A DNA stretch of 64,000 nucleotides, taken from the NCBI RefSeq assembly GCF_001077815.2, contig NZ_CP015441.1:62001-126000 (forward strand). Direction: 5' to 3'. The notes below the pieces were generated by a model that was not told where the DNA came from, did not search any database, and was given only the letters and a program-made list of their open reading frames with translations. How positions within the stretch are numbered: the stretch's first letter is position 1; every line of letters begins with the position of its first letter. The translations under genes were made by a program, and so were the position numbers. Source of the stretch: Aurantiacibacter atlanticus. GTDB taxonomy: Bacteria; Pseudomonadota; Alphaproteobacteria; Sphingomonadales; Sphingomonadaceae. This document shows, one piece after another, positions 8,856 to 54,428 of this stretch.

Positions 8856-9241
8856 GCAAGCCGCGTGGCCGGATCCTTCGTAGGGTTCCGGCACGCTACA
8901 CACCCGCAAGTCCATAAATTTGGGGACTGGAAGCTTGGACTGGTATGAGTAGCCACTGGGCGAATTTTCTGGCCGATGTTCAAAGCAATTACTGAGGAGT
9001 GAAAGTCGAAGGCGGGTCAATAGTCCGCTTTCTTGTCTCCGCCGTGTTGAACCGGACAGTCTCCTTGCGGCCCAATTCCAGTCATATAATTCGAAAGACC
9101 TCAATGGGCAGCTTCTGGGCCGCAGCACGAACCCGCTTCGCGGGAGGGGTGCTGTCGGCGATGGTGATGCCGAGTCACGGGCGTAGCGGGTAGATCGAAC
9201 AAGGCCGAGCATTGCGGCTCCTTCAACAAAGGAGTCGAACG
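8856..9241. other. Intergenic region on the 5' side of the IS91-family element
   Basis: No convincing gene. It contains a short hairpin CCCGCTTCGCGGG near 9132-9144 and probably one end of the IS91-type element, but I could not define the terminus. Confidence 0.4.
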
Positions 9242-10150
9242 ATGAACGAGATTATTCCGATTGGGCCGGTCAGCCCGCTGCGCCAGCGGCTGATCGAGGA
9301 TATGACGATGCGCCGGTTCAGTCCGGAGACGCAGCGTAATTATTTGCGCGATGTCGGGCGGTTCGCGACCTGGCTGGGTCGCTCGCCGCATACCGCCACG
9401 GCCGAGGATGTGCGGCGGTTCCAGATCGAGCAGCGGGAAGCAGGCGTTCCGGCGCCAACCATGAACAGCATCGTCGCGGCGCTGCGGTTCTTCTTCATGC
9501 ATGCGCTCGACCGGCCCGAGCTCGCGCGCAAGCTGGTCCGCACCGCGCATGCCCGCAAGATCCCGGTGGTCCTGACCCAGCCCGAGGTGAAGCGGCTGCT
9601 CGATGCCACCACCTGTCTCAAGCACCAGGCCGCGTTGTCGGTCGCCTATGGTGCGGGCCTGCGCGTCGGTGAGGTCTCGGCGCTCAAGGTGCGCGATATT
9701 GACAGCAAGCGCATGCTGCTCAGGATCGAGCGCGGCAAAGGCGGGCGCTATCGCAATGCCATGCTGCCCGAAGGTCTGCTCGTGCTGCTGCGTGACTGGT
9801 GGCGCGCCGGGCGGCAACAGGGTGTGCTCCATGCCGATGGCTGGCTCTTTCCAGGTCAGAGCGCGACACTGCCGATCAGCACTCGCCAGCTCCACCGGGT
9901 CGTCGTTCAGGCGGCAGAGGCAGCCGATATCGCCAAGCGGGTGGGGCCGCACACCCTGCGGCACAGCTTCGCCACCCACCTGCTCGAGGACGGGGTCGAT
10001 ATCCGCGTCATCCAGGCACTGCTCGGTCACGCCAAGCTGGGCACCACCGCCTTCTACACCCAGGTGGCTACCAAGACGATGCGGGCGGTGGTCAGCCCGC
10101 TCGACCGTCTCGCGCTGGCCGGACCGGACAAGGAGGCACCGAGCGGTTGA
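9242..10150 (+). CDS. Tyrosine recombinase linked to an IS91-family transposase
   Basis: 302 residues with an N-terminal SAM-like core-binding domain (MRRFSPETQRNYLRDVGRFATWLG) and a C-terminal catalytic domain. It shows the expected R (GAGLRVGEV), HxxR (PHTLRHSFATHL), LGH and nucleophile tyrosine (TAFYTQV, ~Y272). ATG 9242 has AAAGGAG upstream. It ends 6 bp before an IS91-type transposase on the same strand; many IS91 relatives carry such a companion recombinase, so the pair is read as one mobile element. Confidence 0.9.
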   Translation: MNEIIPIGPVSPLRQRLIEDMTMRRFSPETQRNYLRDVGRFATWLGRSPHTATAEDVRRFQIEQREAGVPAPTMNSIVAALRFFFMHALDRPELARKLVRTAHARKIPVVLTQPEVKRLLDATTCLKHQAALSVAYGAGLRVGEVSALKVRDIDSKRMLLRIERGKGGRYRNAMLPEGLLVLLRDWWRAGRQQGVLHADGWLFPGQSATLPISTRQLHRVVVQAAEAADIAKRVGPHTLRHSFATHLLEDGVDIRVIQALLGHAKLGTTAFYTQVATKTMRAVVSPLDRLALAGPDKEAPSG

Positions 10151-10156
10151 GGGCTG

Positions 10157-11350
10157 GTGCGCACCTCGCTCGAGGTCGCCGACGTCTTCCGTGCCGCCGG
10201 GCCAGCCTACCGAACCGCCCATGCCGGACGCCTGAGCCTGCATCAGCTCAAGGTCATGTCGGCGATCGAACACTGCCGCACCGCAGCGCTGGGCGGGCAC
10301 GTCGAGGCCTGCACCGACTGCGGCCATTGGCGGATCGCCTACAACTCCTGCCGCAACCGCCACTGCCCCAAGTGCCAGGGCGCCGCCGCACAGACCTGGC
10401 TCGCCGCGCGCGAGGCCGACCTGCTGCCGGTCGGCTATTTCCACGTCGTGTTCACGCTCCCCGCCGAGATCTCCGCCATCGCGTTCCACAACAAGGCGCT
10501 GATCTACGACCTGCTGTTCAAGACCGCTTCGGAGACGATGCTCACCATCGCCGCCGACCCCAGGCATCTCGGCGCCCGGATCGGCATCACCGCCGTACTC
10601 CACACCTGGGGCTCGGCGATGACCCACCATCCGCACATTCACATGATCGTGCCAGGCGGCGGCCTGTCGCCGGATGGGGAGCGATGGATATCGTCCCGCC
10701 CGGCGTTCCTCCTGCCGGTGCGGGTGCTGGGTGCACTCTTCCGCCGCCTGTTCCTCACCCGGCTGCTGGCCCTGCACGACACCGGCAAGCTCGCCTTCTT
10801 CGGCCAGCTGAAGCCTCTCGCAGACCGGCGCGCCTTCCTGCGCCACCTGTCACCGGTCAGGAAGAAGCGCTGGGTGGTCTATGCAAAGCCGCCGTTCGCC
10901 GGACCCGAAGCGGTACTCGCCTATCTCTCGCGCTACACCCACCGGGTCGCCATCTCGAACAGTCGGCTCCTCCGGTTCGACGAGGGCGGTGTCACATTCC
11001 GCTACAAGGACTACCGCCGCACCGGCGCCGACCGCCAGCAGGTGATGACGCTCAGCGCCGACGAGTTCATCCGCCGCTTCCTGCTGCACTGCCTGCCGCG
11101 CGGGTTCCACCGCATCCGCCACTATGGTTTGCTCGCCGGCAGCACCCGTAAGGCCCGCCTCGAACGCGCCCGCCAACTACTCGCGGTTGCACCGCCTGCC
11201 GTCGACGAGGCGCCCGTCGAACCGCCCGATCCGCACCCGCCATGCCCGTGCTGCGGCGGGCGCATGGTCGTTATCGAGACCTTCCAGCGCTGCCATCCGC
11301 CACGCGGTCCGCCGAGCGCAGCCGCTCCATCCGGGCACCCTGCGCCGTGA
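10157..11350 (+). CDS. IS91-family Y2 HUH transposase
   Basis: Rolling-circle transposase that nicks single-stranded ends. The GTG-started 397-residue product has an N-terminal zinc-binding region (CTDCG...CRNRHCPKCQ), the HUH metal motif THHPHIHM (H160, H162), and the paired tyrosines in YLSRYTHR (Y256, Y260) that define the Y2 class. A second Cys pair (CPCCGG) lies near the C-terminus. The gene appears intact. It follows the recombinase by 6 bp. Confidence 0.93.
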   Translation: MRTSLEVADVFRAAGPAYRTAHAGRLSLHQLKVMSAIEHCRTAALGGHVEACTDCGHWRIAYNSCRNRHCPKCQGAAAQTWLAAREADLLPVGYFHVVFTLPAEISAIAFHNKALIYDLLFKTASETMLTIAADPRHLGARIGITAVLHTWGSAMTHHPHIHMIVPGGGLSPDGERWISSRPAFLLPVRVLGALFRRLFLTRLLALHDTGKLAFFGQLKPLADRRAFLRHLSPVRKKRWVVYAKPPFAGPEAVLAYLSRYTHRVAISNSRLLRFDEGGVTFRYKDYRRTGADRQQVMTLSADEFIRRFLLHCLPRGFHRIRHYGLLAGSTRKARLERARQLLAVAPPAVDEAPVEPPDPHPPCPCCGGRMVVIETFQRCHPPRGPPSAAAPSGHPAP

Positions 11351-11748
11351 CCCGGCACGGCACGGCAATATTCTACCCCGCCGCAGCCACGCTTACGGCG
11401 GCGATGACGTCCGCATATTACCTGCCCAAAAGCGGTAGTCGCATCACCAAAATCGGACAAACCGGCGTCCTACGGCTGCTTTGTCATCGCAAAATCGGAC
11501 GGGCTGCTCTCAGATCCGTCCGCTTGTCGGCACCGTCAGCAGCCGTCTGGATCAGCGCAAAGTCGAAATCACCATAGCGCATCGCGTGCGGCCCGCGGGT
11601 TCGGGCACCGTCGACTTTCCGACGCCTCACGGCGTCCGAAACTCTAAACGGAAACGGACTGGCAGGTTTTAGGCGCAGAAACGAGGAAAACGGACATTCA
11701 GGAGTGCCGGACTCTGTGCAGTTCGCGCCGACAAAGAGCGATGCTCAC
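11351..11748. other. Intergenic region on the 3' side of the IS91 element
   Basis: No supported gene. An inverted repeat GACGCC-TCAC-GGCGTC lies near 11620-11635. Probably includes the IS91 3' end and old flanking DNA. Confidence 0.35.
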
Positions 11749-13101
11749 TCATCCACGCCTTACGTGCACTTGCTGCCGCTCAGCCTCGGTGGCGGTTTGA
11801 TACAAAGCAAAGCGATCTGGTGGGGGCCTCTTGCCTCCTCGTGCTACCGCAACCGTAAGCGAACGGCCCTCTTCGATTAGTTGGCGCACGATGGGTTTGA
11901 GCACCGCTGATTGTTCCGCCGTAGTTCCGATCCAGCCACCGGCGACCAGCGGAATAAAGCTCGTGTTGTCGAAATACCGTCCGACGTTCTCGAAGGAGAC
12001 CAAACGCCCGCCGCGTGGCCCGACCTTTCGCGGATCCGCTTCGATTAAGTCCCAATAATCGAGCGGCAGGTACATTCCTTTCACCAATCCAGTATCGGCC
12101 GGTTCGAAGTCGATGCGGGGGCACAGCTTGAGGAAAAAGGGGTTTTCGAGCAGTCGATACCCCTCACACGCCTGATTTGGAGGGCATCGCCGCAGCGTGC
12201 CCAAGTGATCGCGCATTCGGCCGATCTCCTCTGCCAAGCGTTCGTTCGGTAGTCGGAATACCGGCGAAGAGCCGCCACCCGACTCCATCGCCTTGTATTG
12301 GATGAGAGTGAAGGCCTGATAAGTTTCGTTGAAATAGAGCAGATCGGCCCCCAGCTGCTCCTCAATCGCCAGATGGTTCGCCAAGACCAGCGTCAGGGTC
12401 ACCGCGCCACTCTTGAACACTGCCGCCGAACGGGCGACCGGCCGGATATAGTCGAACCCCGGCACGGACCGCATGTCGTGCATGACCATCGCATCTTCGC
12501 GCAGACGAACCTGTTCCAGGCCATCGAGAAACGAAGCGCTGTCGTCGCTCGGCATGGTCCAACCGTGCATCTCGCGCCGATCGATCCCTGCGAAGGCAAG
12601 CGCGGTACCGACCGACTCCTTTTCGAGCGCCAGCGCCTCACGAGTGCTTCGCGGCAGTCGCGCGATCCTGACCCTCTCGATTTCAAACCGCTCAATATAG
12701 CTAGCGAGCGGCGGGTCCAGCTGCCGGACGGCCTCAAGGACCGCCTCCGCAGCCTCGCCGCGGATCAGGCAGCTTCGACACAACTGCTCGCGCACCGTAC
12801 TCTTCAGACCGTCCGGTACCAGCTCCACGATGTCGCCTGTGCGAAGCGGCCCGATCAATTCGTCGACGTCGCTAATGTTGATACGCTTGGCCCCTTCAGC
12901 AGCCTTGTTGCCGACATAGAGCGTACCGGTATGAGTGATCCGACCGGACGTGAATGTCATCAGGCACGGGAGCGGCGGTCCGCCGCGCCGGTGGAGATCG
13001 TCGTCGACGGCTTCCGCGAACATGCCGTAGCGTTCCTTGGCCTCCAGCAGTTCCTCGCCACGTTCACGGATAGCGCGAAGATGATAGATTTCCGTACCCA
13101 C
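11749..13101 (-). CDS. Unknown protein with D-QxK nuclease-like motif
   Basis: 450 residues, family not recognised. The only catalytic-looking block is GADLLYFNETYQAFTLIQYKAM (D253, Q268, K270). It has the spacing of a PD-(D/E)XK nuclease core in which Glu is replaced by Gln, as in some Mrr and defence nucleases; this is inference. Paired Cys also occur in LCRSC (108, 111). GTG 13101 is preferred because AGGGGGAATTC precedes it and because it clears the upstream gene by 17 bp; an in-frame ATG at 13176 would overlap that gene. Probably co-transcribed with the zinc-ribbon gene 13119-14069. Confidence 0.75.
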   Translation of the reverse strand: MGTEIYHLRAIRERGEELLEAKERYGMFAEAVDDDLHRRGGPPLPCLMTFTSGRITHTGTLYVGNKAAEGAKRINISDVDELIGPLRTGDIVELVPDGLKSTVREQLCRSCLIRGEAAEAVLEAVRQLDPPLASYIERFEIERVRIARLPRSTREALALEKESVGTALAFAGIDRREMHGWTMPSDDSASFLDGLEQVRLREDAMVMHDMRSVPGFDYIRPVARSAAVFKSGAVTLTLVLANHLAIEEQLGADLLYFNETYQAFTLIQYKAMESGGGSSPVFRLPNERLAEEIGRMRDHLGTLRRCPPNQACEGYRLLENPFFLKLCPRIDFEPADTGLVKGMYLPLDYWDLIEADPRKVGPRGGRLVSFENVGRYFDNTSFIPLVAGGWIGTTAEQSAVLKPIVRQLIEEGRSLTVAVARGGKRPPPDRFALYQTATEAERQQVHVRRG

Positions 13102-13118
13102 GAATTCCCCCTGACGCG

Positions 13119-14069
13119 CTACTCTTCCTGCCCTGGATGGTTTAGTTTCCGAAGCGGTACGGTGGGGATCACACATTCACCATCGTCGGGCTTTCCGCTT
13201 CTGGTGATGATTGCGACGGGTTCATCCGTGATTTCCACCGGCTCGCCCATCCATTCGCACTCGGTGCAAAATGGGCGCTCCCAGATTTTCTCCGAGCCCC
13301 CGGGATCTTCCGCTCGTAGCGGCGTCAAACGATGACTTCCACATTTCGGGCATTCGTTGGGCACGTTCCGCACAAACAGCGTGGTCGCGTTGGTGCAGAG
13401 CGATATGACCGCCTCCGATGCAGCTACGGCGGCCTCGGCGTCGTGCCAATTGGACGTTGTGCTGTGCGTAAGCCAATTTACGAACGTCCATGCGGCGTCG
13501 GCCTGAGCCTTGAACAACTGGCGCCTGGCCTTGTTGCTTTCACCGGCGAGCGCAACTCCGCACACATGCTGAATCCATCCCTTGAAGTCGCTCTTTTTCG
13601 GCGGATCCTCTTCGGCCGACACCGGTAGGACGAGCTGCGCGATCGCCGTAAACGAGAGGAGTGCTTCGCGGCAACGGACACCAACGGTCTGATAATCGGA
13701 AACACGATGCGCTTGTCCTAGCGCATCCTGTGCGGCCGCAACCGCCTCGAACGCTTTCGCAAAGGGCTCGATCTGACCCGAACTGATTGGCGCCCGCTCT
13801 GAACGCGGCATCCGCAACATCAAGCCCATGTGGAAGGTCACCGCTAGGTCCATGTTGGGAAACATGTCCTGCGAATAGAGGTTGGTCGGGTTAGTGATCA
13901 CCCACCAACGGTCCTTCGTCGTATGGACATCCCACACATCGTGGCGATGGCTCAGGATGCTCTCGCTGTAGATCTTCTGGCAAAACGTGACCTTGAGGTC
14001 GGGCGCCTGCCACTCGACATAGGAGGTGATCTCGGCGATCTCTTCGTCGGTCGCGGGCAGCACGGGCAT
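13119..14069 (-). CDS. Unknown protein with C-terminal zinc ribbon
   Basis: 316 residues from ATG 14069. The N-terminal third (HDVWDVHTTKDRWWVITNPTNLYSQ, then VTFHMGLMLR) looks like a conserved domain of unknown function. The middle is helical. The C-terminal part has two CxxC pairs (C240/C243 and C268/C271) that should form a zinc ribbon. In-frame upstream starts exist to 14183, but composition and the conserved start favour 14069. It is the first gene of a two-gene minus-strand unit with the D-QxK gene, and diverges from the Mrr-like gene at 14214. No membrane segment. Function unknown. Confidence 0.7.
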   Translation of the reverse strand: MPVLPATDEEIAEITSYVEWQAPDLKVTFCQKIYSESILSHRHDVWDVHTTKDRWWVITNPTNLYSQDMFPNMDLAVTFHMGLMLRMPRSERAPISSGQIEPFAKAFEAVAAAQDALGQAHRVSDYQTVGVRCREALLSFTAIAQLVLPVSAEEDPPKKSDFKGWIQHVCGVALAGESNKARRQLFKAQADAAWTFVNWLTHSTTSNWHDAEAAVAASEAVISLCTNATTLFVRNVPNECPKCGSHRLTPLRAEDPGGSEKIWERPFCTECEWMGEPVEITDEPVAIITRSGKPDDGECVIPTVPLRKLNHPGQEE

Positions 14070-14213
14070 CACCTCGATCAATCTTACAAGCCGTACATCA
14101 GAGCCAAGATACGGCGCATCGACACGTTGTTCAGGAACGCAGCAGCATAAAGGGTCGCGCTCCCACACCAGCCTTATTAACAAGGCTTCCTCATCGATGG
14201 GAATATTTGATGC

Positions 14214-15080
14214 ATGAGTAGCCTGCGTTCAGTTGACTTAAGCCTTATCGACGAAATCCTGCGCGGCGGTGAGAAAGGCTATGTGCTCGATTTCTCCAAT
14301 CGCACGTTCAGTGACTTTTTCGTCCGCGAGTTGGATATCGACATCGACGCGCCCGTATACGCGACCGACGGGGGCTCTAAAGCAAAGCGGTTGGGCTGTT
14401 TTCTTCGCAAGGTCGACAATGGCACCGCAGCGCGGGCCCTTCGGGTCCTGTGGGAGCACCGCGAGGCACTACGCGGGACCGAAGAATCAGACTCCTTCCC
14501 TCGCGCCGCCGGCCAATTCGCCGCGATGATCGCACGATTGGAAGGCGACGGTCCGATGGCTCCCGTCAACGTCGTCGCGGCCCCTGCGATCGAGACGATC
14601 GAATACGATCGCCTTCGCACCCGTCTCCTGGGCATCCGGGACTTACCGCCGCAGCAGCGCGGCTATGATTTCGAACGGTTTCTCAAAGACCTGTTCGACG
14701 CCTTTCGCATGAGCGCGCGCGACCCGTTCCGGCTTGTCGGCGAGCAGATCGACGGCAGCTTCGAACTGGCCGGCGAGACCTATCTTATCGAAGCAAAGTG
14801 GCTGAACCGAAAAGTCGGCGTTGCCGAATTGGGAGCCTTTCATGCGAAGCTTGAACAAAAGGCGTCGTGGACGCGCGGCCTCTTCATCAGCTTCGGCGGC
14901 TTTACCAACGAGGGGCTGCAGGCGTTCGGCAAAGGTCGCCGTCTTGTCGCGATGGACGGCCGCGACCTCTACGAGAGCCTGACGCGCGGAATTGCAATCG
15001 ATCGGCTGATTGCACTGAAGGTCCGCCACGCTGCGGAGACCGGCGAGATATTCGCTCCCGTCGACCGTTTGGTCGCTTGA
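14214..15080 (+). CDS. Mrr-like restriction endonuclease-fold protein
   Basis: 288 residues. The C-terminal half carries a Mrr-type PD-(D/E)XK core: QRGYDFERFLKDLF (E154), then EQIDGSFELAGETYLIEAKW (D180, E193, K195), followed by a helical FHAKLEQKASWTRGLFISFGGF stretch typical of Mrr_cat. The N-terminal ~130 residues form a separate helical domain of unknown role, perhaps target recognition. Probably a DNA nuclease that cuts foreign or modified DNA; no methyltransferase is nearby, which favours a modification-dependent or abortive role. The next gene starts 1 bp after its stop, so the two are almost certainly translated together. Confidence 0.8.
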   Translation: MSSLRSVDLSLIDEILRGGEKGYVLDFSNRTFSDFFVRELDIDIDAPVYATDGGSKAKRLGCFLRKVDNGTAARALRVLWEHREALRGTEESDSFPRAAGQFAAMIARLEGDGPMAPVNVVAAPAIETIEYDRLRTRLLGIRDLPPQQRGYDFERFLKDLFDAFRMSARDPFRLVGEQIDGSFELAGETYLIEAKWLNRKVGVAELGAFHAKLEQKASWTRGLFISFGGFTNEGLQAFGKGRRLVAMDGRDLYESLTRGIAIDRLIALKVRHAAETGEIFAPVDRLVA

Positions 15081-15081
15081 G

Positions 15082-15831
15082 ATGGCAAGGGTCTGTCGCG
15101 CGCCGGGATGCGAGGAGGCGAAACTGTGCCGTGCCCATATCGTGCCGGCGGGATTCGCCCGCACATTGAGCAAGCCCGGCGGGCACAATCGCGCCATCCG
15201 GTCGACGGGATCGAAGCCGGCAAAGCAGCCGCACGGCGCGTTCGACGACGGAATACTATGCCGGCGCTGCGATGGGCTCCTCGGCCGCTACGACGAGTAC
15301 GCCGTTCGATTTTGCAAGTCGCTGCCAATGACGCGCGACGCGGCAACGGGCGAGATATATCGGCGTGCGCCGTTCGATGGCAGCCTGTTTGCACGCGCCA
15401 TGCTCGCGATCTTGTGGCGTGCCTCCCTCAGCGATCGCGAACCGTTCGAGGAAATTGCTCTTGGACCGTATCAAGACCGGGCCGGCGCAATCCTGTTCGG
15501 CGGCGCACCGCTCGCTTCGTGCCCTGAGCTCGAACTGGTCTTGTATCGCTACGCTTCGGACAAACACGACGCGCGTAAGTTCGTCTTCATGCCGCTTCGC
15601 ATTCGGTCCGGCGCACTGAACGCCTTCACTTTAGGGCTCGGCGGATTTCTCGTCTGGATCAAGGTCGACCAACGACCCATCGATCCAATGCTGGCGCCGT
15701 TCGTCGTCAACGCCGCCTCCGAGCTTCGCGCGCCGATAATCCGCTTCGAAGAGACCGCCGAATACGCCTATTTCCAGCAGGCTGCCCATCAGGATCGGCG
15801 GCGCGGCCGGCGCCCGCCGACCCAAGCATGA
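15082..15831 (+). CDS. HNH-like zinc-finger protein of unknown function
   Basis: 249 residues. The N-terminal ~75 residues have CRAPGC-(5)-CRAHIVP and later DDGILCRRCDGLLGRYDEYA (C5, C10, C16, H19, C60, C63), the shape of an HNH/treble-clef finger. The rest is a mixed alpha/beta domain I do not recognise. HNH-type nicking or binding is plausible but the catalytic His set is not certain. It directly follows the Mrr-like gene (1-bp gap), implying a joint function. Confidence 0.7.
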   Translation: MARVCRAPGCEEAKLCRAHIVPAGFARTLSKPGGHNRAIRSTGSKPAKQPHGAFDDGILCRRCDGLLGRYDEYAVRFCKSLPMTRDAATGEIYRRAPFDGSLFARAMLAILWRASLSDREPFEEIALGPYQDRAGAILFGGAPLASCPELELVLYRYASDKHDARKFVFMPLRIRSGALNAFTLGLGGFLVWIKVDQRPIDPMLAPFVVNAASELRAPIIRFEETAEYAYFQQAAHQDRRRGRRPPTQA

Positions 15832-15967
15832 CGATCGGACCGTCATCCCGCAAGCTGCGTTCCCTGCCCAACTCGAAACTGCACACCGTTCCTCGATCGG
15901 CTGCACCGACCTGCACCGGTGCGGATTTGCTGTCGCCGCAGTACAGAGCGTCCCTATACCGGGCGCC

Positions 15968-17089
15968 GTGACCGACCGATCCCCGCCTCTCGTCGTCCCG
16001 CCGCGTCCCGGCAGCAAGATGTTCGTCTTCAAGGAGACCGAACATCCGGACGGCGGAGCACCCCGCACATTTGCCTTCACCGATGTCGATATCCTCCCGC
16101 GAGGCTATGACGAGCTCGCGAAGGCAAAGCTGCATGCTGCCGTCACGATCCCTCTGGAAATGTTCAACGGCCGCATCGTCGACACCGACGTCGAAGGCGT
16201 CGACCTGAGCAAATACGCCCATATTACCGCGACGCTCGAGAGTCCGTTCACGGCCAAGGCGATCGGTCTGGTGCGCGGCGGTTGGCTGCCGTCGGCCCTC
16301 GCCGCGACTCGAGAGCATGCGGTCGTGCTGCCCGATCGCAATATCGTCTCGGAGATTGCCGGCAGGTTCGAAAACGGCAGGAAGACCGGCCGCGAGCCCG
16401 ATTTCCTTGACCTGTTCGCGAGCGAGCCGGTTCGTATCAATCCGCTCCTGTTTGCGATGGAGGGCAATAGCCGGACGCTTCCTGATCCGGCCTCGGCTCA
16501 GGCGCAGCTCGAAGAAGCCGTCGCCAAGATCGGCAGCGCGCTTCCCAAGGCCGAGCTCATGATCGGCCCGATGTCGCTTACCGGCCTCCTCGGCCTAATC
16601 GAGGACACAGGACCTGGCCTCGCCCGCAAGCAAGTGTTTCTGCGCGGTATGGCCCCCACACTCGCGGCCCCGGTCGCGCGCGCCCAGATCGATCGCCGTT
16701 GGAGCGAGGTACTCGCCGCCGCCGATGCAAACGCCGTTCCGCGCTCGTCGCTCGTCGTGCTGGCGGTGCTCAGCACGCTGGTAAATCCGGGCAAATGCGC
16801 GGCCAAGAAGCTGCTCAAATTCCACGCGGGCTACGGCGATACCGACGCCTACAACGCCCTGTGCGATCTGCGTTCGCTAGACATTCTGCTGCACTGTCTC
16901 GCTTTCTATCCCGACCACGATACGCAGCTGTGCACCGCCGACCGCAACCTTGCGCTGTTCTGGACCGGCCTCCAGGCAACGAACATCGCCCGCGACGGGC
17001 AAGGCATCCGCTATACGATGACGCCCCACGAGGCGCTGTTGCCCGGCGCCTACGGGGAACGCTGGGCCGAGGCTGTCAATCGCAGCTGA
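15968..17089 (+). CDS. Unknown protein with PIN-like domain
   Basis: 373 residues. The spacing of acidic residues suggests a PIN-type RNase fold: HAVVLPDRNIVSEI (D123) near the start of the fold, an acidic cluster around DTDAYNALCDLRSLD (residues 291-305) and TADRNLALFW (D325) near the end. This is inferred from motif shape only; the ~110-residue N-terminal part is unknown. GTG 15968 is used; ATG 16019 is an alternative and neither has a strong ribosome site. Lies 136 bp after the HNH-like gene on the same strand. Confidence 0.6.
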   Translation: MTDRSPPLVVPPRPGSKMFVFKETEHPDGGAPRTFAFTDVDILPRGYDELAKAKLHAAVTIPLEMFNGRIVDTDVEGVDLSKYAHITATLESPFTAKAIGLVRGGWLPSALAATREHAVVLPDRNIVSEIAGRFENGRKTGREPDFLDLFASEPVRINPLLFAMEGNSRTLPDPASAQAQLEEAVAKIGSALPKAELMIGPMSLTGLLGLIEDTGPGLARKQVFLRGMAPTLAAPVARAQIDRRWSEVLAAADANAVPRSSLVVLAVLSTLVNPGKCAAKKLLKFHAGYGDTDAYNALCDLRSLDILLHCLAFYPDHDTQLCTADRNLALFWTGLQATNIARDGQGIRYTMTPHEALLPGAYGERWAEAVNRS

Positions 17090-17161
17090 AGCCGCAGCAA
17101 CGGAGCCGAGCCCATTCGGCCACGACAAAGAGTGCAACCCTGTGCGGCGAAATCGAACGGA

Positions 17162-18181
17162 TCAGACGTTGAAGAACCTGCAGGGCATGTCCGGCGCCAG
17201 AAAGGTCAAGGCGTCCTTCGGCCCCAGCACATATTCGGGCCATTCCGCGGCGGTCCACTCTGCATTGGAAGCGACCGGATTGCGCGAGCGGCCGACATTG
17301 GAGCGCGCGCGCTCAAGCAACTCGTCCATAAGCGCAATCACTTCCGCCGACCCCAGAACCGCGGGGATCGTCACTCGCAGAGCGTTCTCGAAGCTGTCGA
17401 GGCAGATATGAACGACGTTGGGATGGAGCCGGCGCGTGGCTTCGAGCAGCCTGCCGTAGTCGAACTTGCGATCGTCATGCACTATCAGCGCAAAATCGTA
17501 GAGGTGGCCGACCGTTCCGTCGACCCGATTGGTCTGTGCCGCCCAGGGGCGCGTCAGCACTTGTACAGTCATACCGACCACGGCCGATCTGTCGACATGA
17601 CCGATACGCGCCCATTTGCGAGGTTCGATTTCGCTCCAGGGCAAAGGGTCGAGTGGGAGGAAATGCAGCGTCACCGGATCGTCCGATTGCGGAAGGATCG
17701 GATCGGCATCGTTGTAGCTCGTGCAAAATGTCCAGAAACCCTTGTCGATGTCGCGCAGGAATTGGAGAAGCCGCGGGTGATCGTCGGCATGCCCGACCCG
17801 GAAATGGGCGATCCGGTGCCGGATCTGGGCAATCTCCGCCAGCTTGGCGTCCCACAACGGCTGGGGCGGCAGATAGGGCTCGAAACACTGCCAATTCTCG
17901 CCGACCAGCTTGGTAAGCTGTGAGAGCGGCGCATAGCTTAGCGCATTCATCTCGGGCGTCGGCATGTGCTTGAGATATTTGTCGTTCTCAAAAGCCTTGG
18001 CGTTGGGTTGGATCGACTTGCTCCAATTGTTGCCGAGCAGCGCGCGCAGTTCGACATAGACCATGCGCCGGAGCCAGGTCTCGAATTGCCAGAGACGTGC
18101 GTAAATGCGCAGCGCCCGCTCGGGCACTTCGCCGGTTTCGTCGCATGGGGTCGATTCGGGCGTTTCCGGGCTCTCGTTCAT
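17162..18181 (-). CDS. Swt1-type HEPN domain protein
   Basis: 339 residues. RALRIYARLWQFETWLRRMVYVELRALLG (residues ~22-50) is the characteristic first helix pair of the Swt1/HEPN family, and IRHRIAHFRVGH (R121, H126) gives the R-x4-H RNase motif. HEPN proteins of this kind are metal-independent RNases in toxin-antitoxin and phage-defence systems. The C-terminal 170 residues are not recognised. ATG 18181 matches where homology starts, although the frame stays open to 18670 through a decayed gene. It is convergent with the PIN-like gene. Confidence 0.7.
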   Translation of the reverse strand: MNESPETPESTPCDETGEVPERALRIYARLWQFETWLRRMVYVELRALLGNNWSKSIQPNAKAFENDKYLKHMPTPEMNALSYAPLSQLTKLVGENWQCFEPYLPPQPLWDAKLAEIAQIRHRIAHFRVGHADDHPRLLQFLRDIDKGFWTFCTSYNDADPILPQSDDPVTLHFLPLDPLPWSEIEPRKWARIGHVDRSAVVGMTVQVLTRPWAAQTNRVDGTVGHLYDFALIVHDDRKFDYGRLLEATRRLHPNVVHICLDSFENALRVTIPAVLGSAEVIALMDELLERARSNVGRSRNPVASNAEWTAAEWPEYVLGPKDALTFLAPDMPCRFFNV

Positions 18182-18263
18182 GCGTAACGAATAGCATTGG
18201 CTGCTCGGTAGACCGAGAGGTAGGGGCTGCATGCGCAGGTGCGGACCCGACGCCGGACAGCGC

Positions 18264-18612
18264 TCAATCCTTCCACTCGCTGCGCCGCGCAGGCAGCCGG
18301 TTGTTCGCGGTGCTCCAGGCTTGGATCCGCGGTCGCCGCGGACAACCTCCTCGCCGTTCGCCTTCAAGGCGACAACGCTTGATGCGTCGACGTTGCGGTA
18401 GCGTTTTCCCTCGTCCCAATCCCAGTCGAAGCTGACCGTCTCGCCCTTGTATACAACTTGCCGGACCAGGCAGGGAGAAACGATTAGCGCTCCCCATCTA
18501 TCGTCAGAACGTGCTGGTGCCAGGCGCGACTGTTGCCGCCGCGACTGGGCGGCCGCGGCTTGTCCTTCAGATGGACGCCGTAATGCTCGACTTCGGCTTG
18601 TTCGACTCGCAA
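18264..18612 (-). pseudogene. Decayed small gene with frameshifts
   Basis: Three minus-strand pieces read as one broken protein. From TTG 18612 (AAGGGGAAG upstream) comes LRVEQAEVEHYGVHLKDKPR...HVLTIDGER, stopping at 18484. In a second frame, starting at the same point, comes LIVSPCLVRQVVYKGETVSFDWDW...VVALKANGEEV. In a third frame near the 3' end comes RLPARRSEWKD with a stop at 18264. Each piece looks like protein rather than random translation, and the joins need single-base shifts. Family not recognised. Alternatively the first 42 residues form an intact micro-gene. Confidence 0.4.
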
Positions 18613-18650
18613 GCTCTTCCCCTTTCTTATATCCAACGCGACGATCCACA

Positions 18651-19151
18651 ATGGCCGAGATGATCGACAATCCTCAAGAAGTGCTCGCAATTTTTGCGGA
18701 GGCCGTTCGCGCGCTCCTGGCCGACAAAGAGTTGGCCTACGCCGATCCCGCCGAGCGCGCGATCGTCCATCGGCTGGCGGTGCTGCTGGAAGGCAAGTTT
18801 TCCGGCTGGTCGGTCGGCGTTGAATGGAACCGGCGTGAGGATGTCGTCAAACGGCTGGCGCATGGCGCCACCAAAGACGAGCTGATACGCGAGGGAGCGA
18901 TCGTCCCCGACCTAATCGTCCATCGGGTGGGCAAGCGGGAAAACCTGCTGATTGTCGAAGTCAAAAAGTCGAGCAACAAGGATTATGAAGGCGACATCTG
19001 GAAGCTAGAAGGCATGACTGATCAGACAGGCGACTACGGCTATGTCTCCGGGATTGATGTTCGTGCAGGCACCGTTCCAAAATGCGACGTCTATGTGGAC
19101 TCGACGTTGGATTGTGAGTTGACCGCCTGGATGCAGGATCAACTATCCTAG
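18651..19151 (+). CDS. PD-(D/E)XK-like protein of unknown function
   Basis: 166 residues. IVPDLIVHRVGKRENLLIVEVKKS (D87, E103, K105) is a clear PD-(D/E)XK nuclease core, and the next helix (DYEGDIWKLEGMTDQTGDYGYVSGI) fits proteins in which the fold binds DNA ends or acts as a small endonuclease. The N-terminal 50 residues are helical. ATG 18651 is the first start; there is no strong ribosome site. Last gene of the nuclease-rich stretch. Confidence 0.65.
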   Translation: MAEMIDNPQEVLAIFAEAVRALLADKELAYADPAERAIVHRLAVLLEGKFSGWSVGVEWNRREDVVKRLAHGATKDELIREGAIVPDLIVHRVGKRENLLIVEVKKSSNKDYEGDIWKLEGMTDQTGDYGYVSGIDVRAGTVPKCDVYVDSTLDCELTAWMQDQLS

Positions 19152-19174
19152 TTTGAGAGCCTCATACACGACCC

Positions 19175-19435
19175 TTGACGCTCGTCTCCCAACTGACAGA
19201 ACTTCCGCTTACCAATTTATCTGAAGATCCCCTGAGGGGCCGGAATGAGGGCGCAAAGTCGACGCTAGCCGAGCCAGAATTGGACCGGGGCAAGCGCTTT
19301 GCACTGTGGTCGTTCCTGCACATGTTCGGGTCCGCCCCCGATCTCGATGTGGCGTTCGAGAACGAGGAAGATCGGGAAGCAGCGCGCAACTTCATGGATC
19401 TCCTGGCGGCATCGGAGGGCGAAAGGGCAGGCTGA
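19175..19435 (+). CDS. Small hypothetical protein
   Basis: 86 residues from TTG 19175, 24 bp after the previous gene. The C-terminal half (RGKRFALWSFLHMFGSAPDLDVAFENEEDREAARNFMDLL) looks like a folded acidic helical protein, while the first 30 residues are less convincing, so an internal start is possible. Family not recognised. Confidence 0.4.
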   Translation: MTLVSQLTELPLTNLSEDPLRGRNEGAKSTLAEPELDRGKRFALWSFLHMFGSAPDLDVAFENEEDREAARNFMDLLAASEGERAG

Positions 19436-19759
19436 TTGCAGCGCACGGTCACGTCACCTTCAGACCCACATCCGATACCCATCCGGTTTTTGTCGCGAAC
19501 AGTCCTGAACCAGGTCAGCTGAGGACGGCAACCCGTTCCTTTCCGGCCGTGTTGGCACGCCCTTTGGCGCGATTGCGGACGCAAAAGCGGTTCTCACTTT
19601 TGCTGCAATCGCTGGGGCGCGCCTGCCCGCACCACCCGTCATGAACAGGTTCCCCTTGGAGCTTCGCTCCTGCGGTGCAGTCCTCCCATGCCCTGCTTCT
19701 TAGGCAAGTTCGCAAGCCGGAGATGGTCTCCGGTTTGAGGAACTGAAGGAACTTTCGTC
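19436..19759. other. Intergenic leader of ssb
   Basis: No gene seen. A perfect 7-bp hairpin CCGGAGA-TGG-TCTCCGG lies at 19717-19733, 27 bp upstream of ssb. It could be a terminator for upstream transcription or a leader structure. Confidence 0.4.
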
Positions 19760-20158
19760 ATGACCAACATTGCAATCCTCACCGGCCGCATCGCCCGCGA
19801 ACCGGACACCCGCGAGACCAAAGGCGGCACCAATGTCACCGGGATCACAGTCGTCACCGATCGTCCCGCACGCGACAAGGACGGCAAGACCTACAAGGAC
19901 GAGAACGGCTACACCGCCAAGGAAAGCGAGTTCCACCGGGTGACCTGCTTCAACGGCCTCGCCAAGACCGTCGGCCAGTACTGCTCCAAGGGCCAGCTGG
20001 TCAGCGTGCAGGGCCGCATCCACTACACCCAGTGGGAGGACAAGGACGGGGTCACCCGCTACGGCACCGAGATCCTCGCCGACAAGGTCGATTTTCTCTC
20101 CCGCGGCAACGGCTCGAGCGACGATAACGACAACACCGACGCTCCCGAGATCGACTGA
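19760..20158 (+). CDS. ssb: Single-stranded DNA-binding protein
   Basis: 132 residues, one OB-fold: MTNIAILTGRIAREPDTRET...VTDRP, then HRVTCFNGLAKTVGQYCSKGQLVSVQGRIHYTQWED. The acidic tail DDNDNTDAPEID lacks the usual DIPF-type end, so contacts with host replication proteins may be weak. Shorter than chromosomal SSB (about 170 residues); such short forms are common on plasmids and ICEs, where they protect transferred single strands. The start has a GAAGGAAC ribosome site. A strong hairpin terminator follows. Confidence 0.92.
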   Translation: MTNIAILTGRIAREPDTRETKGGTNVTGITVVTDRPARDKDGKTYKDENGYTAKESEFHRVTCFNGLAKTVGQYCSKGQLVSVQGRIHYTQWEDKDGVTRYGTEILADKVDFLSRGNGSSDDNDNTDAPEID

Positions 20159-20181
20159 CCTCTTCCGTCAGTGTCTCTTCC

Positions 20182-20216
20182 GAAGGGGTCCTGTCCGAGC
20201 CGGACAGGGCCCCTTC
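20182..20216 (+). terminator. Hairpin terminator of ssb
   Basis: 16-bp arms, 20182-20197 (GAAGGGGTCCTGTCCG) and 20201-20216, with a 3-nt loop and a single G-T wobble, followed by TTG-rich sequence. It starts 23 bp after the ssb stop. Confidence 0.75.
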
Positions 20217-20466
20217 TTGCGTTGTTCAACCACTCTGGCGGAGGAGGGGCCTGGCTCACGGTTGTCTTATTCTGATGGGCGTCCAACCGGCGCGTCAAGG
20301 ACGGCAGGGTCCCACCATTTTGCCTCCCCTTCGCTGCGCTACGGTCCGACAAAATCGTTACCCCTACCGCCGCTTCGCGGTCGCCCTTCGGAGCGATCCC
20401 TGACCCGCCGGCCGCACGCCCATCCGTCCTGCTCCTGCCGTCAACGGCAGACATCAGGAGGAAATT
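20217..20466. other. Gap between ssb terminator and next gene
   Basis: No credible gene on either strand. Several small GC hairpins (for example near GCCGCTTCGCGGTC) occur just before the ribosome site of the next gene. Confidence 0.3.
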
Positions 20467-20688
20467 ATGGCTACGCAATTTCAACGCACTTCGACTTCGG
20501 ATCGCTACTTTGCCGCACTGGCTATAGCAGAACGTCGGGCGCTGCACAGCTTCTTCGATCAGCACATTATCGAGGACAAGCGCCTTGGATATTTTGCCCT
20601 GGATGAGGGTGATTACAATGTACTTCCGGCGCACCTTGCAGCGCGCGTGGTGCATACCGTCCACGGGGCGATGTCAGACGAGTTCTGA
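20467..20688 (+). CDS. Small hypothetical protein
   Basis: 73 residues, MATQFQRTSTSDRYFAALAIAERRAL..., helical, no cysteines or membrane segment. CAGGAGGAAATT directly upstream of ATG 20467 is a very strong ribosome site and the main support. Family not recognised; the neighbourhood (ssb, then toxin-antitoxin and T4SS) suggests a mobile-element accessory gene. Confidence 0.65.
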   Translation: MATQFQRTSTSDRYFAALAIAERRALHSFFDQHIIEDKRLGYFALDEGDYNVLPAHLAARVVHTVHGAMSDEF

Positions 20689-21245
20689 CCGCATGAGCAG
20701 GGCAGGGACCAGCAACGGTTCCTGTCCTATTCTCATGTTCACAGGGGTGACGGATGGCGATGGCGCAGTGCGAAAGTTGGACGCATAATCGGTCGCCCCC
20801 GGATTCGATAAACAATCATTCTGGCATGTCGGTCCATTGCGCCGGACAATACATCTTGCTCCTTTGCCGTCATATCCAAGCAGGCCAGAACATTGGCTGC
20901 TGATGTTGGCTATTTGGTCCCCATTTCGGAACATTCGAGGAAAATTCTCGTCCGAATATCTCGGTTCTAAACAAAAAGTTCCGCCGCTAAAGGCGACGCT
21001 GCGCTGCGCTTCCGTTTTGAAACGAAAGCATTTTCTCCAATAATCTGGCCGGGGAAGCAACTGGTCACTGATCCACAATTCAGAATGGGCTTGACCCAGC
21101 ACACCGTACGCAGCGGTGGAAGTCAGCTTTATGAAACGAAAAGCCTGACGCCAGCTATTCTGCACCCGGCCGTGTGAGGCACTGATCGAGACTGAAACCC
21201 CGCCAAATCGCCTGCACGCATCAGTCTCTTGGGGCTCACAGTGAA
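20689..21245. other. Gene-poor stretch upstream of the first Xre-RES pair
   Basis: A 239-codon minus-strand frame covers 20674-21393 but has unlikely composition and crosses the promoter and coding start of the Xre gene. I do not accept it. Nothing else is seen. Confidence 0.4.
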
Positions 21246-21303
21246 TTGACAAGATCGCTCTCGATGCCATATGTCGCTCTACAAACGACAGGTGACATAT
21301 GGC
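21246..21303 (+). promoter_or_regulatory. Promoter and palindromic operator of Xre-RES module 1
   Basis: TTGACA at 21246-21251 is followed 17 bp later by ATATGT as a possible -10. A perfect inverted repeat GCCATATGTC (21266-21275) / GACATATGGC (21294-21303) overlaps the -10 and runs into the start codon at 21299. This is the expected layout for autorepression by the antitoxin. Confidence 0.65.
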
Positions 21304-21775
21304 GACAGTGATTGAACGAGAGGATGATGCGATCGTTACCCGAGCGGGCCGCCGGCTTGGGGGCAAATCAACCTTCAAGCGGCCGCTCCGCAATCGTCTC
21401 GACGCGCACGAGGTGATCGAAAAGGGTTTCCCCGGCGGAGCACTGATCTTTTTGTCCGAGAACGTTGCCTTGTTGCAGCAGCCCGGCGCTTTCGAGAAGG
21501 CGATGGGTATCAGTCTTCGTACCCTGCAGCGCCGAAAAAGGGAGGATTCGCCAAAGCGATTGAGCCTTGAACAAAGCGGACGGGCGTGGAAATTCGCTGA
21601 GCTGCTCGAGGAAGCAATCGAGGTGTTCGGAAATCAAGAGGACGCGGAGGCATTCTTCAACCGCCCAGCCTTGGGGCTGAATCAGCGTCTGCCGATCGAT
21701 CTTCTCAGCACGCCGGCAGGCACGGAGCTAGTCGAAACCCACCTTGAACGACTGAAATATGGCGTATACGCGTGA
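21299..21775 (+). CDS. Xre/MbcA/ParS-type antitoxin of a RES module
   Basis: 158 residues. Middle part AFEKAMGISLRTLQRRKR is the helix-turn-helix of the Xre-like antitoxins, and the C-terminal GNQEDAEAFFNRPALGLNQRLPIDLLSTPAGTELVETHLERLKYG is the DUF2384/MbcA toxin-binding domain. It neutralises the RES toxin and represses its own operon. The stop overlaps the toxin start (GTGA). Confidence 0.9.
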   Translation: MATVIEREDDAIVTRAGRRLGGKSTFKRPLRNRLDAHEVIEKGFPGGALIFLSENVALLQQPGAFEKAMGISLRTLQRRKREDSPKRLSLEQSGRAWKFAELLEEAIEVFGNQEDAEAFFNRPALGLNQRLPIDLLSTPAGTELVETHLERLKYGVYA

Positions 21776-22269
21776 CGCCGCTGCCGGGAGGGCTGGGGTC
21801 TGAGGACATCCACGCTTGGCGTCTCGACCACGACGATTTCAGAGCGACATGGATTAGTGGCGAAGGCGCTTATCGCGTCGGAGGCCGGTGGAATGCTCCA
21901 GGCAAGAGAGTGGTTTACTGCGCGATAGATCCGTCTACCGCTATTCTTGAGGTTGCGGTCCATAAGACCTTCCGCGTGCTTGATACCGTTCCACACGTAT
22001 TGACTGCGTTGCGCGTTAAGGATCCCTCGACGGTAAAGATCGTGCAACCGGGCGACGTACCCAATCCCAACTGGCTGTCACCTGGGATACCGAGTGCAGG
22101 ACAGCAGACGTTCGGCAACGCACTACTCGAGAACCATGCATTCTTGCTGATACCGAGCGCCGTGTCGTCAAAAAGCTGGAACTTGATGTTCGATCCCGTG
22201 AAAGCAGCCGGTGCCTATGAACTGGTCGAGCAGGAACGCTTCGCGCTCGATACGCGGCTTCACCCGTGA
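21772..22269 (+). CDS. RES-domain toxin
   Basis: 165 residues. The RES motif set is present: WISGEGAYRVGGRWNAPGKRVVYCA, then STAILEVAVH and the late SSKSWNLMFDP. RES toxins such as Mycobacterium MbcT and Pseudomonas Res degrade NAD+ in the cytoplasm; this copy keeps the Arg, Glu and Ser positions expected for activity. GTG 21772 overlaps the antitoxin stop by 4 bp, giving the usual antitoxin-first translational coupling. Confidence 0.9.
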   Translation: MTPLPGGLGSEDIHAWRLDHDDFRATWISGEGAYRVGGRWNAPGKRVVYCAIDPSTAILEVAVHKTFRVLDTVPHVLTALRVKDPSTVKIVQPGDVPNPNWLSPGIPSAGQQTFGNALLENHAFLLIPSAVSSKSWNLMFDPVKAAGAYELVEQERFALDTRLHP

Positions 22270-22362
22270 TATGAGAGCGGATCGATTGCGGAGCATTGCC
22301 TATCAGTCTGGGCGCATCTAGAAGAGCGAAGCGATAGAAAAACCATGCCGAAAGGTATGGTT

Positions 22363-23238
22363 ATGAAAAATCTACTGGTTGCAATCCTCTTCCTGTCTGT
22401 CCCGGCATCCGCGCAGCAAGCGCAATTGCAAACATTCTCGCCAGAACGCTCGTCCGCGTTTGTAATGCTCATACCGGGTGTTCCATCGGCGGCTTCGCCT
22501 TTCAACGATTCCCAGGCTCTGCCATCACGAGCTTCGGCACTCGAGGCCGACTTCGCGAACCTCAACGCGACTATGGAGCCCGGGGCCGAGCCGTCACTCG
22601 ACCTTGTTCCGGCAGCGACCTTCGTGCCGGATTGGATGAGGGGAGGGCGCCCGAAATTCGACTATAGCGTCTATCGCCGCAGAGCATACTTTCCTGATCC
22701 GGATTGCCTCACGACAGGGTACTTTCCTCGTCAGGGCATCAGCGCGGATGCCCAAACGCGCCGGCGCCTCTACTTCCATAATATTCTTACAGCAGCCTGC
22801 GAAGCCGGAGTTCCCGTAACGCTTTTCGACGCATTGGTTGCGCAAGAGAGCCGCTATCGTCCCCACGCGCGAAGTCATGCAGGCGCGATGGGACTCACGC
22901 AACTCATGCCGGGGACCGCGCGCTATCTGAATGTCCGCAACCCGTGGGACGTGCGCGAGAATCTAACTGGCGGCGCGCGCTATCTGCGCGAGCAGCTCGA
23001 TCGGTTTGGTTCGTGGGAACTTGCGCTGGCGGCTTATAACGCCGGTCCGGGCCGCATTGAGCAGTACGACGGGATCCCGCCTTTCCGGGAGACCCGCAAT
23101 TATGTGCGAACGATCATGTCGACGCTCGATGGCGGCGCGGCTCCCGAAGTGCGGTCTCCGCCGTTACTCGCTGCCAACCCGTTCAGGAGGACAAAGCTGG
23201 TTTCCTTCGCTCGGCCGTCAAAGATCCCAGAAAACTGA
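22363..23238 (+). CDS. Lytic transglycosylase (VirB1-like)
   Basis: 291 residues. A signal peptide ([19 protein letters not shown]) sends it to the periplasm. The SLT domain holds the catalytic Glu in [11 protein letters not shown] (E162), then [13 protein letters not shown] and AYNAGPGRI. It should open peptidoglycan for assembly of the transfer apparatus encoded downstream. ATG 22363 follows AAAGG; an upstream in-frame ATG at 22345 would add six residues and is possible. The gene overlaps the convergent membrane gene by 21 bp. Confidence 0.9.
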
Positions 23239-23493
23239 GAACCCCACGCTCCAGGCGTAATACAAAGCTACCGCGACGATGACCGGTGCGCCTTTGAGAT
23301 AGTTGATCTGCCAGCGAAGCCAGATCTTTGGCAGAAGCAGCGTCTTGTCGAGACGGGTGGCGAGGGCGGGACGCCACCTTCCGGCGCGCCAATCGTGTGC
23401 GGTTACCAGAACAGCGAGGACAGCGCACATCAGCGCCATGATACCGACGGCAATGTAGAGCGACGTCCAGGCGATGAGAGCTTCTTGCTTCAT
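23218..23493 (-). CDS. Small two-TM membrane protein
   Basis: 91 residues with two hydrophobic segments ([24 protein letters not shown] and [19 protein letters not shown]) separated by a basic loop. Both lie in an open frame with normal composition. Convergent overlap with the transglycosylase. Family not recognised; position suggests a conjugation accessory protein. Confidence 0.6.
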
Positions 23494-23771
23494 GATTCCT
23501 GGCTACCAGCGTGCCTCTTGCATATGGTGACCGAGCCCGAAGCTGTCCGATCCAGCTCACCGAACATCGCCTCGTTCCGTCCGAACCGCGTATGCTTGAA
23601 ATTGACATCGCCGCTTTTCGCTTGATTGACGACGAGGGCTTTCATTTAGACCTCCGCTGCTTTCCGTATTTCATTCTGCGCCAGATCCCTGTTCGGCAAT
23701 GAGAGCGCTATGTTGCGACATGTGGGGCGCCGGATGGCCAGCAGAGACCACCCAGGTAGTCCGAGCAACGC

Positions 23772-24263
23772 TCAACCGTAGGCGAAATCGAAGTCTCCAC
23801 CGTTGCGTCGGTCTTCGAGCTTGCGGTGGTATTTTGCGATTGCGGAAGACGTGTTTTTTGCAATTCCGTTGCAGAGTTCGTCGCGAATGGTCTCGAAGGT
23901 GCCTTCGCAGGCAGCGAGCTCGCTTGGCAGATGGGTGGCCATAGCGATCGCAACGAGAGCCGAGGTCTCGCAGCACGGATCTTCATAGGAAGCTGGGTCC
24001 GAGAAACACTGAACTGTGATCGCAGCGCGGATCGGATCGATTTCGAGTCGTGCAGACACGGCATGGAACTCAGCGATCGGGAGCGATCCTTCGGCAATGC
24101 GTTCGAAGAAGCGGTTGCGATGGCTACGCCGGATGACCCCTTCGTTGACCAGCTTCCGCACGCTCACGCCGCGCTTCTGCATCTGATCTCTGATGAGGAC
24201 CGAATATTCCTCCTGAAGCTGAGTGCAACTTTTAATCTCAGCTCGCTGTGACCCCTCGGACAT
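23772..24263 (-). CDS. Conserved small protein, possible regulator
   Basis: 163 residues from ATG 24263, chosen because GGAGGA precedes it (an in-frame start at 24332 lacks one). The segment EEYSVLIRDQMQKRGVSVRKLVNEGVIRRSHRNRFFERIAEGSLPIAEFHAVSARLEIDP resembles a Xre-like helical DNA-binding domain; the rest is unknown. It lies 72 bp after another minus-strand gene, both diverging from the transfer operon, so a transfer-regulation role is possible. Confidence 0.65.
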   Translation of the reverse strand: MSEGSQRAEIKSCTQLQEEYSVLIRDQMQKRGVSVRKLVNEGVIRRSHRNRFFERIAEGSLPIAEFHAVSARLEIDPIRAAITVQCFSDPASYEDPCCETSALVAIAMATHLPSELAACEGTFETIRDELCNGIAKNTSSAIAKYHRKLEDRRNGGDFDFAYG

Positions 24264-44826: not shown

Positions 44827-45612
44827 ATGGCTAAGCGTTCTGACAGCAAGCTAAACCGGCTTCAGCGGGAACTCCCTGAGGGACTCCTGGCCGATGCCGC
44901 GTGGATGGAGGCGCACGGTTATTCATCGGCGCTGCGCAGCCAGTATGTCCGCGCTGGCTGGCTCGAAAGTCCGGCGCGGCGGGTCTATCGTCGCTCGCGC
45001 GCGCCATTGACATGGCCGCAGGTGGTTATCTCGCTCCAGACCGTGCTGGACCTGCCGCTGACCGTCGGCGGGCGCACCGCACTCGAACAGCTAGGCTATG
45101 CCCATTACCTTTCGGCGGAGATGCGCGAGGTTCACCTCTACGGGCCGAAGCGACCGCCGACATGGCTGGACAGTTTGCCGCTCGACGTAGCCTTCCGCTG
45201 GCACAACAGTCTGCGTCTGTTTCCCGGCGATGCCGGCGCACAAGCGGAGCCGAGCCCCGTCATGGTCAGCGCCGCAGATCTGAGCTTACCCATCCGCTAT
45301 GCGAGCAAGGAACGTGCCGCGCTCGAATTGCTCGACGAGTTGCCCAGACATGAGAGTTTCCATCAGGTCGATGCCCTGATGGAAGGGCTGAGCGATCTCA
45401 GCCCGCGTCGCCTGCAAACCCTGCTGGAGACCTGCGCCAGCGTGAAGGTGAAACGGCTATTCCTGTTCTTCGCCGACCGCCACCGGCATGCCTGGCGATC
45501 CCGTCTCGATGTGACCCGTGTCGATCTTGGATCGGGGAAGCGCGTCCTGGTCAAAGGTGGCACGCTCGACCCCGGCTACCACATAACCGTGCCGTCCGAT
45601 CTGGCGGGGTAG
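44827..45612 (+). CDS. AbiEi-type antitoxin/transcriptional regulator
   Basis: 261 residues. An N-terminal winged-helix region (LPEGLLADAAWMEAHGYSSALRSQYVRAGWLESPARRVYRR) and the AbiEi C-terminal domain. In type IV abortive-infection systems AbiEi represses the operon and counters AbiEii. Followed after 8 bp by the toxin gene. Looks intact. Confidence 0.9.
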   Translation: MAKRSDSKLNRLQRELPEGLLADAAWMEAHGYSSALRSQYVRAGWLESPARRVYRRSRAPLTWPQVVISLQTVLDLPLTVGGRTALEQLGYAHYLSAEMREVHLYGPKRPPTWLDSLPLDVAFRWHNSLRLFPGDAGAQAEPSPVMVSAADLSLPIRYASKERAALELLDELPRHESFHQVDALMEGLSDLSPRRLQTLLETCASVKVKRLFLFFADRHRHAWRSRLDVTRVDLGSGKRVLVKGGTLDPGYHITVPSDLAG

Positions 45613-45620
45613 CGGGCATC

Positions 45621-47581: not shown

Positions 47582-47609
47582 TTGACAAGTGTTGTCAGAT
47601 ATGACTACA
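47582..47609 (+). promoter_or_regulatory. Putative promoter of the HigBA-like pair
   Basis: TTGACA at 47582-47587 and CTACAT 17 bp downstream give a consensus-like promoter ending 7 bp before an ATG at 47617. TTGACA-N17 supports transcription of the toxin gene. Confidence 0.5.
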
Positions 47610-47616
47610 TAGGATC

Positions 47617-53948: not shown

Positions 53949-53973
53949 CTTTGCTTCCGCTCGATTCGATCCC

Positions 53974-54004: not shown

Positions 54005-54015
54005 GGAGATTCGAC

Positions 54016-54420: not shown

Positions 54421-54428
54421 ACCCACCC

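Follow-up and report, generated by a model that had tools for sequence, protein, structure and literature searches.

The 64,000-base stretch of Aurantiacibacter atlanticus DNA analyzed here (the window) comprises bases 62001-126000 of a contig of 213,959 bases, one of two in the genome. At positions 11749-19151 it contains seven open reading frames (ORFs), g1 to g7, adjoining an IS91-type mobile element. An earlier note, made from the sequence alone, had described this region as a nuclease-rich gene island and candidate defense system, and all seven ORFs were found where it placed them. Their strand order (-,-,+,+,+,-,+) implies at least four transcription units. The contig carries an F-type TraC (TraC_F_IV, 4e-129) and is therefore most likely a plasmid that is, or once was, conjugative. 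We examine here the probable role of the first gene, g1, a candidate modification-dependent restriction nuclease, and whether the seven genes belong together.

The g1 protein and the neighbors of its homologs

The g1 gene (11749..13101, minus strand) encodes a protein of 450 amino acids, which was assessed by an AlphaFold model, fold matches, catalytic columns and gene neighbors. The model and the fold matches predict a PUA-type reader domain (residues 1-131), a helical linker, and a PD-(D/E)XK nuclease domain (residues ~200-391). The D-x14-QxK motif is near-invariant across 88 sequences of the family. Fold neighbors of the N-terminal part include the RNA reader YTHDF2 and ZmASCH, the latter a ribonuclease according to the title of its report (PMC5615036). 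The C-terminal part resembles Holliday junction resolvases in fold (RecU/Hjc-like). The protein had no match in Pfam, NCBIfam or PADLOC, and a sequence search of the PDB with the g1 profile found nothing. The clade that contains the g1 of the window has 12 rows, 68-81% identical, none of them with known neighbors.

The genes surrounding g1 homologs were assigned from partner representatives, named by PADLOC or Pfam, to which the remaining loci were compared by BLAST. PADLOC named PglX, BrxHI, SIR2, HerA, GajB, type I R, BrxC, HsdM, HsdS and three GajA types across these loci. The representatives were taken from loci L039, L054 and L061 (GajA), L038 (PglX and BrxHI), L033 (BrxC), L096 (HsdM), L094 (HsdS), L081 (HsdR) and, by Pfam, L018 (DUF6119). 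By a count made without a matched control, 27 of 79 g1 loci have defense partners: ten bacteriophage exclusion (BREX) loci, ten of Gabija type and seven with type I restriction-modification (R-M) genes. Adding DUF6119 raises the number with a partner to 32 and leaves 47 of the 79 with none. Nine of the BREX-type loci have PglX and the tenth, L032, has BrxHI only. A looser earlier clustering had also placed GajA in L099 and HsdM in L045, L046 and L052, all of which the stricter count dropped. Further neighbors of defense type were left out of the count, namely a type IIG-like gene in L057, PDC-S06 in L063, and a weak GajB-like helicase in L052. On a Dinoroseobacter plasmid (L016), a RES/Xre pair is annotated beside a g1 homolog and a Gabija-type locus.

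Where BrxC and PglX are both present (seven loci), the g1-family gene stands between the two in the same orientation, and in two of these loci it starts 9-11 bp past BrxC. In six BREX loci (L034, L036-L038, L042 and L043) a SIR2-HerA pair stands directly upstream of the g1-family gene, with BrxC further upstream in five. Partner and g1-family gene share a strand for PglX (9/9), BrxC (7/7), GajA (9/10), HsdM (5/6), HsdR (3/3) and DUF6119 (7/8). The DUF6119 gene overlaps its g1-family neighbor by exactly 4 bp in L062, L064, L066, L068, L070 and L081, and in L064, L069 and L081 the pair sits between type I specificity-like and type I restriction genes. This arrangement suggests that the g1-family gene and DUF6119 form a conserved two-gene module within R-M operons. 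A literature search found no paper on TIGR04141, and DUF6119 is mentioned in none of the best 20 of 2,899 literature matches.

Such close pairing raises the alternative that g1 is no self-sufficient restriction enzyme but a subunit, its family lending a nuclease or sensor to a partner with ATPase or helicase activity (GajA, DUF6119 or the BREX core); the copy in the window would then be an orphan or would use g2. The six overlapping DUF6119 pairs speak for it, as do five loci in which GajA starts -50 to +51 bp from g1, the three different PADLOC GajA models involved, the repeated changes of the Gabija label described below, and the position of g2 only 17 bp upstream of g1. However, the partners are mutually unrelated, 47 of the 79 loci have none, and g2 occurs in none of 83 g1 loci, so that g2 was rejected as a standing partner of g1. 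We regard the partner-subunit explanation as unlikely.

On the g1 tree, the Gabija label changes at least three times on well-supported branches, losses included. The tree labels cover aligned loci only, and they include L099 as Gabija, a label unconfirmed by the stricter count. Repeated recruitment of the family is therefore likely, but not proved, because the changes may be losses, L099 is doubtful and branches are long. A broader reading, which we put forward tentatively, is that the family is a widespread plug-in module, a modified-base reader-nuclease repeatedly recruited as a third arm to mechanistically unrelated systems, its nuclease conserved and its N-terminal reader exchangeable. 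The module would occur across several phyla of bacteria and on one or more phage contigs, and its partners would include BREX (in the brxC-pglX slot), Gabija, and type I R-M together with DUF6119; on this view it may also be an obligatory partner for GajA or DUF6119 where they share an operon.

The folds themselves permit another explanation, in which g1 is directed at RNA or serves in repair and accompanies defense genes for regulation or repair. PUA-type domains are often RNA-binding, RecU and Hjc are junction resolvases, and the fold neighbors of the two halves of g1 fit these activities. Against this, the distribution of g1 is sporadic, with no homolog in 320 other genomes of the order, and the family is embedded in restriction operons. 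In addition, one member, on a viral contig (L131:4260-5639), lies between apparent portal/scaffold and major capsid genes (neighbors judged by eye), that is, within an apparent phage structural gene module. These features suit defense better than a housekeeping function, and an RNA-directed or repair role seems very improbable to us.

Probable independence of the seven genes

The earlier note had proposed that the genes at 11749 and 13119 (g1 and g2) and those at 14214 and 15082 (g3 and g4) make up one multi-gene system or two. The two small gaps on which it relied are exact, 17 bp (13102-13118) between g1 and g2 and 1 bp (15081) between g3 and g4, but the proposal is not supported by the loci compared. 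Searching 72,556 plasmid records by tblastn found homologs of g1 in 9, g2 in 12, g3 in 1415, g4 in 6, g5 in 10, g6 in 4 and g7 in 34. All matches were listed for g1, g2, g4, g5 and g6, together with the best 40 of the 1415 for g3 and the best 30 of the 34 for g7. Comparison of all matches for g1, g2, g4, g5 and g6 revealed not one record in common. Each of 23 plasmid loci that were fetched matches exactly one of ten window proteins, and the other nine, g2-g7 included, are found in none of 83 g1-family loci (79 genomic and 4 plasmid; E 1e-4). A megablast search of 11400-24000 against plasmids returned three short matches only, none within the seven genes.

Across the order, in 320 genomes apart from that of the window (325 in the case of g4), g1 and g5 were found in none, g2 in 5, g4 in 4, g6 in 3 and g7 in 6. 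Distant relatives of g6 and g7 both occur in genome G225, on separate contigs. Genome G195 has a g2 that is 77% identical and is absent from the g1 matches, both samples being of 321 genomes. No conserved g1-g2 neighborhood emerged from the count across genomes that the earlier note had called for. As for g3 and g4, the closest plasmid-borne g4 (L020, 59% identity) is preceded by a different gene, and no g3 or other Mrr gene occurs in six g4 loci (L020, L021 and L028-L031, the last four short). The g3-g4 adjacency is likewise absent from three g3 loci, a count limited by the rarity of g4 and by the use of the best 40 of 1415 g3 records.

A few observations weigh on the other side. In L124 an Mrr-like stretch lies beside a g7-like gene, both of them distant relatives. 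A close g2 homolog (P0002, 83%) and a close g4 homolog (P0249, 70%) have the same longest contig size, 4514 bases, a coincidence with a chance expectation of ~0.05 among the closest homologs and of 0.67 over the full lists. In addition, NZ_CP062117 (Aminobacter sp. SR38) has relatives of g3 and g5 ~11 kb apart, with a g2 relative on another plasmid of the strain. Set against the disjoint plasmid records of g1 and g2, the single window family at each of the 23 plasmid loci, the six g4 loci without Mrr and the 83 g1 loci without any other window gene, these points leave one or two co-evolved systems with little probability. A joint system of all seven genes was rejected on account of the alternating strands and the lack of co-occurrence.

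The seven genes are thus probably a patchwork of single defense genes and probable orphaned parts. What holds from the original description is that sporadically occurring genes of nuclease, HEPN and PIN type stand together at mobile DNA, with defense associations for g1, g5, g6 and g7. Sequence signatures include D-x14-QxK in g1, a zinc ribbon in g2, Mrr_cat in g3 and PD...EVK in g7. A lesson is that the shortness of the gaps between genes says little about whether a defense island contains a joint system.

Other genes of the cluster and of the window

The g2 protein (13119..14069, minus strand) has 316 amino acids, with an N-terminal alpha/beta domain, a putative HEPN-like helical bundle (97-237) and the zinc ribbon. 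Its start is most likely at 14069, because residues 39-41 of the longer ORF are where homologs start. It lacks a conserved RX4-6H motif, as no R lies 5-7 residues before H202 and no H is in range of R182 or R183 (invariant columns). One g2 relative (L130:249-1334, 76% identical) sits at the end of a viral contig beside apparent phage structural genes, as judged by eye, and is possible prophage cargo; another homolog (L004:3998-5515) is fused to a gamma-glutamylcyclotransferase-like domain (GGACT, 5.5e-10).

On the opposite strand, g3 (14214..15080, 288 amino acids) encodes an Mrr-type restriction endonuclease that matches the Mrr catalytic domain (PF04471, E 1.2e-8) at 35.4 bits against a cut-off of 21; a sequence search of the PDB with g3 found nothing. 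The adjacent g4 (15082..15831, plus strand, 249 amino acids) encodes a rare zinc protein that we take to be HNH-like, a label with which one source name agrees. Across 14 sequences it conserves C10, AH19, C60xxCD and D71; its family comprises 44 proteins found, its own included, and has no relative in viral contigs. Next on the plus strand, g5 (15968..17089, 373 amino acids) is presumably PIN-like, with D123, E165, D300 and T323xD325 invariant in 6 sequences. In L014 there is a 4-bp overlap between a g5 homolog and a Mokosh MkoB-like gene. Pfam and NCBIfam scans gave no match for either g4 or g5.

The last two genes look like orphaned system parts. Their starts were placed at 18181 (g6) and 18651 (g7), as the first ATG adjoining the homologous part. 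The 339-amino-acid g6 product (17162..18181, minus strand) is a Swt1-type HEPN protein with an RX4H motif (RHRIAH), matching PADLOC PDC-M34B at 6e-13 and, below the cut-off, HEPN_Swt1 at 4e-4. The A component of PDC-M34 was not among the ten window proteins scanned. The 166-amino-acid g7 product (18651..19151, plus strand) is a PD-(D/E)XK protein that matches the PADLOC model for the A component of PD-lambda-3 (PD-Lambda-3_A, 4.2e-19) and carries PD...EVK. Its homologs in L023 and L024 (65-66% identical) adjoin a gene for 229 amino acids that matches no PADLOC or Pfam family and has no tblastn match within the window. Neither g6 nor an 86-amino-acid ORF downstream of g7 matched the other PD-Lambda-3 models.

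To the left of the cluster, the IS91-type element that the earlier note had recognized was confirmed by Pfam. It occupies 9113..11651 on the plus strand, with edges taken from an 89% alignment to NZ_CP041223.1, and encodes a tyrosine recombinase (9212-10150; Phage_integrase, 4e-37) and a Y2/zinc transposase (10157-11350; Y2_Tnp, 1.2e-65; Zn_Tnp_IS91, 5.6e-33). Plasmid alignments of the element stop at ~11651, 97 bp before g1.

Elsewhere in the window are both genes of a ParST-type RES/Xre toxin-antitoxin system, which overlap by 4 bp (21299-22269, above NCBIfam cut-offs), the AbiEi and AbiEii genes of a type IV toxin-antitoxin system for abortive infection, downstream of transfer genes (44827-46538), and a Gp49-type toxin, which we take to be RelE-like, with an HTH_37 antitoxin and again a 4-bp overlap (47582-48312). 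Positions 53553-55775 contain likely mercury-resistance genes, with a MerT-like match of 2.9e-6 (below cut-off) and MerR- and MerA-like ORFs recognized by eye.

Proposed function of g1 and its relation to known systems

The reading that we prefer, at a probability of about 0.6, is that the stretch brings together, as a mosaic, anti-phage genes acquired independently of one another, and that g1 is a stand-alone, type IV-like modification-dependent restriction endonuclease. It draws on the predicted two-domain architecture, the near-invariant putative catalytic residues, and the way homologs recur in operons with genes of BREX, Gabija-type and type I R-M systems and with DUF6119. The defense genes would be parked beside the IS91-type element on a conjugative-type plasmid; the PUA-type domain of g1 would recognize a modified base in the DNA of an incoming phage, and the RecU/Hjc-like PD-(D/E)XK domain, probably dimeric, would cut that DNA. 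Here we infer DNA as the substrate, the base specificity, cleavage, dimerization and host protection alike.

BREX and type I systems mark host adenines. Cutting plain N6-methyladenine would harm the host in BREX or type I operons, and thus cytosine or another phage-type modification is the more likely target of the g1 family. In the host genome of the window the best PglX match scores only 21 bits, which is not a good match, and a single strong N6-methylase match lies on the larger contig, so g1 probably works without BREX here.

Several described enzymes resemble g1 in part. VcaM4I is an EVE-HNH modification-dependent restriction endonuclease, whereas g1 has PD-(D/E)XK in place of HNH, shares 10% identity with it over the aligned part, and has no Pfam EVE match. 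The type IV enzymes of EVE/YTH-PD(D/E)XK architecture predicted by Bell et al. 2020 have the domain layout of g1, a modified-base reader joined to PD(D/E)XK; the main text of that paper has no mention of BREX (PMC7641849). The type IV enzyme BrxU covers phages with modified cytosines from the brxC-pglX slot of pEFER (PMC8565348). The g1 family occupies the same slot, where its expected role would be to cover phages whose modified DNA escapes BREX, but BrxU is of GmrSD type (DUF262-DUF1524), and Pfam finds neither domain in g1 or any of 92 homologs. Stand-alone auxiliary PD-(D/E)XK nucleases inside BREX loci are a described class, for which the portion of the source available names HARE-HTH, ATPase, helicase and Shedu-type fusions, and no PUA-PD-(D/E)XK protein like g1 (PMC12839542). 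Nor does g1 match Shedu (SduA), with no DUF4263/Shedu match in g1 (Pfam, PADLOC) or the 92 homologs (Pfam). As far as the literature was searched, the family is a variant of a kind of enzyme already predicted, and the range of its operon partners is unreported; it may be undescribed as such in print, and supplements may list it.

If the proposed function is correct, the g1 family is an unnamed nuclease that is a recurring companion of several major defense systems, and one that defense-finding tools based on models of this sort would miss, because neither Pfam nor the PADLOC version used recognizes it. It would account for the gene in the accessory slot of certain BREX, Gabija and type I R-M operons. 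It would also be a source of new modification-dependent nucleases. If the more tentative plug-in reading also held, such a module would serve generally against phages whose modified DNA lets them evade methylation-based immunity.

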